A stretch of 64,000 bases of DNA from the NCBI GenBank assembly GCA_018335035.1, contig JAGXKT010000001.1, positions 62,001-126,000 on the forward strand. Direction: 5' to 3'. The position numbers were made by a program, and so were the translations under genes. Source of the stretch: Phycisphaerae bacterium (GTDB lineage Bacteria; Planctomycetota; Phycisphaerae; SM23-33). The notes below the pieces were generated by a model. That model was not told the DNA's origin. It did no database searches and was given only the letters and a program-made list of their open reading frames with translations. Below are positions 33,230 to 35,112 of this stretch, piece after piece (the first letter of the stretch is position 1; the number at the start of each line of letters is the position of its first letter).

Positions 33230-33258
33230 TTGACGCCGGCCGTCCGTTAGGGTAATGT
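33230..33258 (+). promoter_or_regulatory. Candidate promoter of the umuD-like gene
   Basis: TTGACG (33230-33235), exactly 17 nt, TAATGT (33253-33258), then only 6 nt to the ATG at 33265. This predicts a leaderless umuD-like mRNA. No LexA-type operator (CTG-N10-CAG or GAAC-N4-GTTC) was seen. Confidence 0.4.
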
Positions 33259-33264
33259 ACGGGT

Positions 33265-33603
33265 ATGGAAACGTCGCGAATTCCATACCTGGGCCCCATC
33301 ACGGCCGGGTTCCCGAAGGCATCCGAGGGCTATGAGGATTGCCCGATCGACCTCCAGGCACTGCTGGTGCCCCAGCCGGCGGCGACGTTTTTCTTCCGTG
33401 TCGTCGGCGACGACCTCCGCGCCGACGGCGTTCCGGCCGGGGCGGTGCTGGTCGTCGATCGCTCCTGTCGCCCGCGCCGCGGACGCCTGGCCGTGGTCGA
33501 GCAGGACGGGGCCTTCCTCGCTACGCGCCTCGGCGACACACCGCGCCCCGACGCCGTCGTCGGTGTCGTCACCGCCTCCATCGTGCAGATGGGACGGGGA
33601 TGA
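33265..33603 (+). CDS. UmuD-like protein without the catalytic Ser-Lys dyad
   Basis: A 112-residue protein of the LexA/UmuD S24 family. It aligns without gaps to residues 11-122 of E. coli UmuD (constant offset of 10). An Ala14-Gly15 bond stands where UmuD cleaves (Cys24-Gly25), and PIDLQALL matches RIDLNQLL. The catalytic Ser60 is Asp50 (VVGDDL in place of ASGDSM) and Lys97 is Thr87 (DGAFLATRL in place of DGEFTVKKL). Self-cleavage by the known mechanism should therefore be impossible. It is 198 bp upstream of umuC, so a role as an obligate partner of UmuC is likely; whether it needs processing is open. Confidence 0.85.
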   Translation: METSRIPYLGPITAGFPKASEGYEDCPIDLQALLVPQPAATFFFRVVGDDLRADGVPAGAVLVVDRSCRPRRGRLAVVEQDGAFLATRLGDTPRPDAVVGVVTASIVQMGRG

Positions 33604-33606
33604 GGG

Positions 33607-33641
33607 AGGGCTGAGAACAGAGGACTGAGGGCTGAGGATTG
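33607..33641 (+). repeat. Heptanucleotide array, AGGRYTG type, between umuD-like and umuC genes
   Basis: Five contiguous 7-nt units at 33607, 33614, 33621, 33628 and 33635 (AGGGCTG, AGAACAG, AGGACTG, AGGGCTG, AGGATTG), starting 4 nt after the umuD-like stop codon. The rest of the 198-bp gap contains a small hairpin GCATGG-CTAA-CCATGC (33684-33699) and GAGCGTAGCGAGTCGAAGGG (33765-33784). Confidence 0.8.
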
Positions 33642-33801
33642 AGAGCGGGGCGTGGCGTGGCATGGCTTGGCCGGGCGTTTTTTGCATGGCTAACCATGCT
33701 CTCCCGGATCGGGAATGCCGTGGTGGGCTCTGCGCGCCAAACCACGGCGCCGGCTCGTCCTGGGCGAGCGTAGCGAGTCGAAGGGCGGATAGCGTCGAGA
33801 C

Positions 33802-35112
33802 ATGCTTGTCCACGTGGATGCCAACAACTTCTATGCCTCCTGCGAGAAGGTATTCGATCCGACGTTGCGGGACCGGCCCGTCGTCGTGTTGTCCAACAAC
33901 GACGGCGTCGTCGTCGCGCGCTCGTCCGAGGCCAAGGCGTTGAACATCGACATGGCCCGGCCTTACTTTCAGATCGCCGACCTGCTCCGCCGCTACGACG
34001 TCCGCGTGCTCAGCAGCAACTACACGCTCTACGATGACATGAGCAACCGCCTGGCGGCTGTCTATCGCCGCTTTACCGACGCGCTGGAGATTTACTCCAT
34101 CGACGAGTGCTTCCTGTCGTTCGATCACGTTCCGCCCGACCGGCTCGACGCCGAGGCGCGCCGCCTGCGGACCACGGCCGGGCGGTGGACGGGCATCCCC
34201 GTCGGCGTCGGCGTCGCCGCGACCAAGACGCTGGCGAAGCTCGCCAACCGCCTGGCCAAGAAGGTTCCCGCCAACGACGGCGTCTGCGTGTTGGGCGACG
34301 CCGCGTCCGTTCGCGACGCCCTCGGGCGTATCGAGCTGACGGACCTGTGGGGCGTGTCTCGGGGTTTTCAGTGCCGCCTGCGGTCGTTGGGGATCGCCAC
34401 GCCGCTGGAGCTGGCCGAGGCCGATTCGCACCTCGTGCGCCGGCGCCTCGGCGTGGTCGGTCAGCGGATCGCCCTCGAGCTGCGCGGGCAGCGATGCATC
34501 CCCATGGAGGTGATCGCGCCGGACAAGCAGACCGTCTGCTGCTCGCGCTCGTTCGGGACCGAGACGCGCCGGTTCGACGACCTCCGACAGGCCGTCTGCA
34601 CCTTCGCCTCGCAGGCGATGGTCAAGCTCCGCCGCCAGGACCTCGCCGCCGGGGCGGTCACCGTGTTCGTCGACACGAACATCCACGCCCCGCCCGGCGT
34701 CAAGCAATATCACAATGCCCGAACCACGGGTCTGCCGACCGCCTCGTGCGACACGCGCGAGATTGCCGCCGCGGCCGTCCGCGCCCTGCGACGCGTCTAC
34801 CGCCCGGGCTATTCCTACAAGAAGGCCGGCGTCCTGCTGCACCGGCTGGTGAAGCGGTCGGGCGTGCAGCCGAACCTGTTCGACCGGCGCGACCACGGGC
34901 GCGCGGGGCGGCTGATGGCCACGGTGGACCGGATCAACCGCCGCTTCGGGCGCGGGGCGGTGCGGATCGCCGCGGCCGTGCCGTTCGGCATGGCGCCGTC
35001 CGGCCTGACCGCCGGGCGGACCGTTCACTGGCGCGGTCGCTGCGACCGCCGGAGCCGATGCTACACCACACGTTGGGACGAACTGCCGATCTGCTACGCG
35101 AAGTCCGCGTAG
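33802..35112 (+). CDS. umuC: Y-family translesion DNA polymerase (UmuC, DNA polymerase V catalytic subunit)
   Basis: A 436-residue error-prone polymerase. Catalytic carboxylates are in place: Asp6 (VDANNFYASCE) and Asp101-Glu102 (YSIDECFLSF), at the same numbers as in E. coli UmuC. The little-finger and C-terminal UmuC-specific region (RYTTRWDELP-like SRCYTTRWDELP near the end) is complete. It copies past lesions in the SOS response when partnered with processed UmuD. Here the only partner in sight is the UmuD-like protein lacking its dyad. Intact reading frame and normal length suggest a working gene. Confidence 0.93.
   Translation: MLVHVDANNFYASCEKVFDPTLRDRPVVVLSNNDGVVVARSSEAKALNIDMARPYFQIADLLRRYDVRVLSSNYTLYDDMSNRLAAVYRRFTDALEIYSIDECFLSFDHVPPDRLDAEARRLRTTAGRWTGIPVGVGVAATKTLAKLANRLAKKVPANDGVCVLGDAASVRDALGRIELTDLWGVSRGFQCRLRSLGIATPLELAEADSHLVRRRLGVVGQRIALELRGQRCIPMEVIAPDKQTVCCSRSFGTETRRFDDLRQAVCTFASQAMVKLRRQDLAAGAVTVFVDTNIHAPPGVKQYHNARTTGLPTASCDTREIAAAAVRALRRVYRPGYSYKKAGVLLHRLVKRSGVQPNLFDRRDHGRAGRLMATVDRINRRFGRGAVRIAAAVPFGMAPSGLTAGRTVHWRGRCDRRSRCYTTRWDELPICYAKSA

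Follow-up and report, generated by a model that had tools for sequence, protein, structure and literature searches.

We describe a gene pair that probably specifies a translesion polymerase of the Pol V type, in which UmuD is a pseudo-peptidase, permanently pre-activated in the manner of UmuD', with control exerted through transcription and RecA. The pair lies in a 64,000-nucleotide stretch of a Phycisphaerae bacterium genome, and this whole stretch is called the window below. In E. coli, UmuD has to lose a 24-residue arm to become UmuD', and this cutting is the textbook post-translational brake through which the action of error-prone Pol V is delayed once DNA is damaged. On balance, we lean towards a broader proposal: a chromosomal Pol V lineage would have dropped the self-cleavage checkpoint by mutation of the protease (Lys first, Ser later, and repeatedly), its UmuD would have become a constitutively active structural cofactor, and mutagenesis would be controlled only by transcription and RecA. 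The literature searched, which lay largely outside subscription journals, yielded no description of a UmuD lineage that has lost the dyad.

A short UmuD without the Ser-Lys dyad precedes an intact umuC

The upstream gene (positions 33265–33603, forward strand) encodes a protein of 112 amino acids. A C-terminal fold of the S24/LexA type, related to UmuD, was recognized in several comparisons: the Pfam Peptidase_S24 profile scored 35.5 bits, above its cut-off; the NCBIfam UmuD model NF007621 scored 61 bits, below the model cut-off of 110 bits; and the PDB match was E. coli UmuD (E 1.7e-10). When the protein was aligned to E. coli UmuD, the equivalent of Ser60 was found to be Asp50 (codon GAC, 33412–33414) and the equivalent of Lys97 was Thr87 (codon ACG, 33523–33525). 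Both substitutions had been proposed in a first-pass annotation of this DNA, and reading of the codons bears them out: the Ser60-Lys97 catalytic dyad is absent from the short UmuD of the window. Given the missing dyad, RecA-stimulated self-cleavage of this protein is very unlikely. The same annotation had assumed a constant offset of −10 residues to E. coli UmuD; the offset holds up to the Lys97 position and breaks down beyond it, where about 22 residues are deleted. Such a deletion could alter dimerisation or UmuC binding. Taken alone, it was rejected as a mark of catalytic loss, as two UmuDs of about 120 amino acids (L167 and L178) lack a comparable stretch after Lys97 and keep both Ser and Lys.

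The Gly of the cleavage site, also noticed at first pass, is indeed present as Gly15. The preceding residue is Ala14, which makes an Ala-Gly pair of the LexA type, as opposed to the Cys24 of E. coli UmuD. The retained Ala14-Gly15-Phe-Pro, a former cleavage site, belongs to an N-terminal arm region (33265–33315, forward strand) of low model pLDDT. The arm before the Gly has at most 14 residues, compared with 24 in E. coli UmuD, because the ATG is the sole start codon available and a TAA in the same frame occurs 9 nt ahead of it. The arm ends in a scissile-type pair and is short of the canonical length.

An AlphaFold model of the short UmuD, built with a 19-row alignment, shows a confident core (pLDDT ~90) and a floppy arm (residues 1–18, pLDDT below 50). 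The top Foldseek match of the model was E. coli UmuD' (1ay9; E 1.4e-5, TM 0.66–0.68). The S24 fold is retained in the short UmuD despite the lost catalytic site. The likeness to E. coli UmuD/UmuD' thus includes the fold, the best solved structural match, the Gly-Phe-Pro region and the position of the gene straight upstream of umuC; the differences are the missing dyad, the shorter arm, the deletion past position 97 and the presence of Ala-Gly instead of Cys-Gly.

The downstream gene (33802–35112, forward strand) encodes UmuC, the catalytic subunit of Pol V. The protein matches Pfam IMS, IMS_C and DUF4113 (63.8 bits for the latter), and scores 363 bits against NCBIfam NF002955, below the cut-off of 431 bits. 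A check of individual residues agreed with the earlier statement that Asp6, Asp101 and Glu102 are intact. Besides this Asp/Asp/Glu set of Y-family polymerases, the protein has the C-terminal extension (RecA-NT/DUF4113, C-tail), with a tail that reads RCYTTRWDELP, and a clamp-binding-like motif, QPNLF.

The two genes are separated by 198 bp (33604–33801, forward strand), and the spacer contains an array of the heptamer GAGGACT repeated 5.4 times (33606–33643); both features had been reported at first pass and are real. In relatives with both genes in view, the gap between umuD and umuC is 0–12 bp or the genes overlap (ATGA in G966). Judged by its absence at related loci, the spacer is an insertion peculiar to the window's lineage and lies outside the system. 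A regulatory role of the spacer or its array was considered and rejected, as relatives do without it and arrays of this type are dispersed in the genome, with five other matches elsewhere. The inserted spacer also harbors a palindrome, GCATGGCTAACCATGC, at 33684–33699.

In two relatives (G452 and G638), a divergent SRAP gene lies directly upstream of the pair, and in a third (G446) it lies nearby. This arrangement recalls SRAP-linked UmuC-like polymerases, as a link between SRAP and UmuC has been reported (PMC12926913). In the window's genome, however, a SRAP gene was looked for and not found, and UmuD is present.

The dyad is lost in various ways across a small lineage

A scan of GTDB genome contigs yielded one close relative, L034 (G446), with 70% identity, in a Planctomycetota MAG (JAIOPN010000015.1). 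This relative has Ala and Arg at the dyad positions, and its umuC begins 1 bp past the umuD stop codon. Further members were retrieved by searching relatives of the L034 genome, its order and the window's class, and one was obtained from IMG/VR. The window is thus joined by members from eight genomes and from one metagenomic contig, L191, which carries a viral label, for a lineage of 10 in all.

Residues at positions 60/97 are D/T in the window, A/R in G446 and G457, V/R in G452, D/R in G638, E/C in G513, S/C in G482, S/E in G966, D/E in L191 and H/R in G455, whose copy is broken. Lys97 is therefore replaced in all ten (by T, R, C or E) and Ser60 in eight (by D, A, V, E or H). Canonical UmuDs from the same class and phylum show Ser and Lys in essentially all cases examined. 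No relative within the lineage has both residues. Dyad loss is real and is not confined to a single strain; a one-strain mutation or a sequencing error at either codon was ruled out by the nine additional members, in which the dyad is lost variously. The first-pass annotation had asked whether Asp and Thr are fixed among Planctomycetota relatives. They are not: position 60 may be D, A, V, E, H or S, and position 97 may be T, R, C or E. Because both positions vary freely, Asp/Thr was rejected as a new fixed catalytic pair. Universal loss of Lys, together with scattered retention of Ser, suggests that Lys was lost before Ser.

Gly-Phe-Pro is conserved in the lineage alignment and is preceded by 8–18 residues, and the first half of the arm is poorly conserved. 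Four close members are 61–70% identical to the window protein, and the reading frame is open in nine of the ten umuD genes. The exception is G455, where umuD contains a stop codon and umuC is truncated; in G457, a stop codon lies within umuC. The damaged cassettes may reflect either decay in some genomes or assembly errors. With two damaged loci in ten, the system may be dispensable.

Members whose kinship is stated belong to the window's class, albeit to different families. Broad samples of the phylum provided no additional members, and the lineage is therefore rare. Searches of plasmids and phages with both proteins gave no matches at 60% identity or above. A plasmid or phage origin was thus set aside; the viral label of L191 does not prove a viral origin, as the neighboring genes have no PHROG match. 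On that contig, a gene for an OST-HTH/LOTUS-domain protein (L191:2754–3632) adjoins the short UmuD gene.

Seven members were included in a tree of 38 UmuC proteins built by maximum likelihood; they formed one clade with 100/100 support, and a single change sufficed to explain the lineage label. A quicker tree with an eighth member, G966, left the clade intact (SH-aLRT 100); the trees thus cover seven and then eight of the ten members. Pairwise dN/dS of the umuD-like gene was 0.09–0.28 among the five closest members, a rough figure as synonymous sites are near saturation. At the sequence level, this ratio shows constraint on the short UmuD protein.

Other S24 proteins of the member genomes were also examined. 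A Peptidase_S24 search in nine genome entries (two of which, G455 and G645, are apparently the same genome, as their coordinates coincide) detected one LexA and the short UmuD in each, and an HTH-S24 protein in some. No second, canonical UmuD was found in these nine entries, whose assemblies are incomplete (96.84% completeness for the window's genome). In the latter genome, S24 matches other than the short UmuD are confined to LexA and an HTH-S24 protein. The idea that a canonical UmuD encoded elsewhere might cut the short UmuD in trans was accordingly rejected for the genomes searched. LexA with both Ser and Lys was present in the eight genomes examined, and so was RecA (8/8). The HTH-S24 protein of the window's genome (L002; G000:C66:31510–31845, outside the window) reads VGDPM, with Ser changed to Pro and Lys kept, which gives this genome two S24 proteins whose dyad is broken; its relatives L058 and L134 have both residues.

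The putative promoter of the short umuD overlaps a candidate SOS operator

Inspection of the sequence upstream of umuD revealed a putative sigma-70-like promoter (33230–33258, forward strand) made of TTGACG (33230–33235), a 17-nt spacer and TAATGT (33253–33258). An automatic promoter scan omitted it, since TAATGT has 3 of 6 consensus bases. A similar layout, TTGACG or TTGATC followed by 17 nt and TAATGT or TAATGC, precedes umuD in G446, G452, G457 and G638. Because the −10 element ends 6 nt ahead of the umuD ATG and the layout recurs in these relatives, the arrangement suggests that the umuD mRNA may be leaderless.

A direct repeat of the form GTTA-N7-GTAC (GTTAGGGTAATGTAC; 33246–33260, forward strand) overlaps the −10 element. 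In Alphaproteobacteria, the LexA box is GTTC-N7-GTTC (PMC8565304). Repeats of this type, with up to two mismatches, were found in 8 of the 10 lineage promoters, compared with 3.55 expected (P ~0.007, 300 shuffles), a figure to be read with the 7 of 10 obtained with a control spacing of 13 nt and with the fact that the consensus was chosen post hoc, once the data had been seen. Elements of the form TGTT[CAT]GG are also enriched before recA, canonical umuD and short umuD in these genomes; this pattern was likewise picked post hoc, and its shuffle P-values overstate the enrichment. In the window's genome, the promoter of recA contains GTACGGAATTTGTTC on the minus strand. No LexA box for the window's phylum was found in the literature searched, and none could be defined in the lexA promoters. 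With these reservations, the direct repeat at 33246–33260 is a probable, still putative, SOS operator, and expression of the short umuD looks damage-regulated.

A proposed pre-activated UmuD and its alternatives

A permanently UmuD'-like subunit is the simplest reading, since the arm is short and there is no protease. The short UmuD would be neither able to cut itself nor in need of doing so, as it would be made directly in a UmuD'-like form. It would dimerise, bind the C-terminal tail of UmuC and offer its short AGFP arm to the polymerase. In models of Pol V, UmuD' binds the UmuC C-tail and a short arm is inserted near the UmuC active site (PMC11791011). Being made UmuD'-like and without self-cutting, the subunit would leave no place for the RecA-stimulated checkpoint. 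Control would have shifted to two other levels: transcription, through the putative LexA-type direct repeat that overlaps the candidate leaderless promoter, and the RecA subunit by which UmuC is activated.

The natural precedent is HumD of phage P1, a pre-activated protein of the UmuD' type, encoded already shortened, which skips the cut (PMC7092418). The alignment also shows differences, however: HumD of phage P7 starts at a Met before Gly-Phe-Pro, has no arm and keeps Ser and Lys, whereas a start at Gly-Phe-Pro is not seen in our lineage. The HumD homologue gp26 of N15 has Thr and Lys at the dyad positions. No umuC is annotated alongside HumD or gp26 in the stretches examined, while the short UmuD belongs to a chromosomal umuDC pair, with the arm shortened and the dyad lost. 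A second parallel is provided by YqjX/YolD-type subunits of Bacillus subtilis, which are small, non-proteolytic and partner a UmuC-like polymerase of the Y family; their arm is predicted to reach into it (PMC12926913). This family is evolutionarily distinct and has only the SH3 core in common with UmuD' (PMC6511836), in contrast with the short UmuD, which is a true S24 homologue.

Three options had been left open at first pass: a polymerase that is always active, control by another protease, and use of an uncleaved UmuD. The short arm, the conserved Ala-Gly-Phe-Pro and the UmuC C-tail favor a pre-activated, UmuD'-like subunit, and the term "always active" needs to be qualified if transcription responds to damage. 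Part of the arm remains and its Ala-Gly is conserved, so the protein could also act as uncut UmuD does. A permanently uncut UmuD might then play a restraining, checkpoint-like role and hold UmuC inactive. Conservation of Ala-Gly-Phe-Pro where self-cutting is impossible fits such a brake, and in E. coli the S60A substitution in UmuD strongly lowers UV mutagenesis (PMC3901139). We nonetheless consider it unlikely. The lineage arm is 6–16 residues shorter than that of E. coli UmuD, and an E. coli UmuD deleted for residues 1–17 acts like UmuD' in several assays, including arm mobility and binding to the alpha subunit (PMC5342242). Furthermore, a brake on the sole UmuC found is hard to square with a conserved polymerase active site.

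Somewhat less probable still is removal of the arm upon DNA damage by another protease, be it a housekeeping enzyme or LexA working in trans. Every genome examined has a dyad-intact LexA, the Ala-Gly site is kept, and trans cutting among S24 proteins can occur within heterodimers: UmuD deleted for residues 1–17 cuts UmuD S60A in this way (PMC5342242). Documentation of UmuD cutting by LexA in trans was not found in the literature searched, however. In addition, the length of the arm varies between 8 and 18 residues with little conservation in its first half, and no recurring neighbor of the pair could be recognized as a dedicated protease, SRAP being the only neighbor annotated.

The damaged copies in G455 and G457 raise the question of whether the dyad was lost as the locus became a pseudogene. 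We give this explanation little credit, as nine of ten umuD frames are open, close members retain 61–70% identity, dN/dS is 0.09–0.28, the promoter layout is conserved and umuC is co-conserved. Finally, an alternative active site within the S24 fold, made of Asp/Thr or of the Ser kept in G482 and G966 with Cys or Glu, can practically be dismissed, for the pairs D/T, A/R, V/R, D/R, E/C, S/C, S/E and D/E have no chemistry in common.

If the pre-activated reading is correct, a lineage that has UmuC and the UmuD fold but no cutting machinery amounts to a natural experiment on whether the brake is needed. Members with Ser and without Lys hint at the order in which the catalytic residues were lost. 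The lineage also bears on the roles that the UmuD fold plays beyond self-cutting, and on the minimal arm that UmuC requires.
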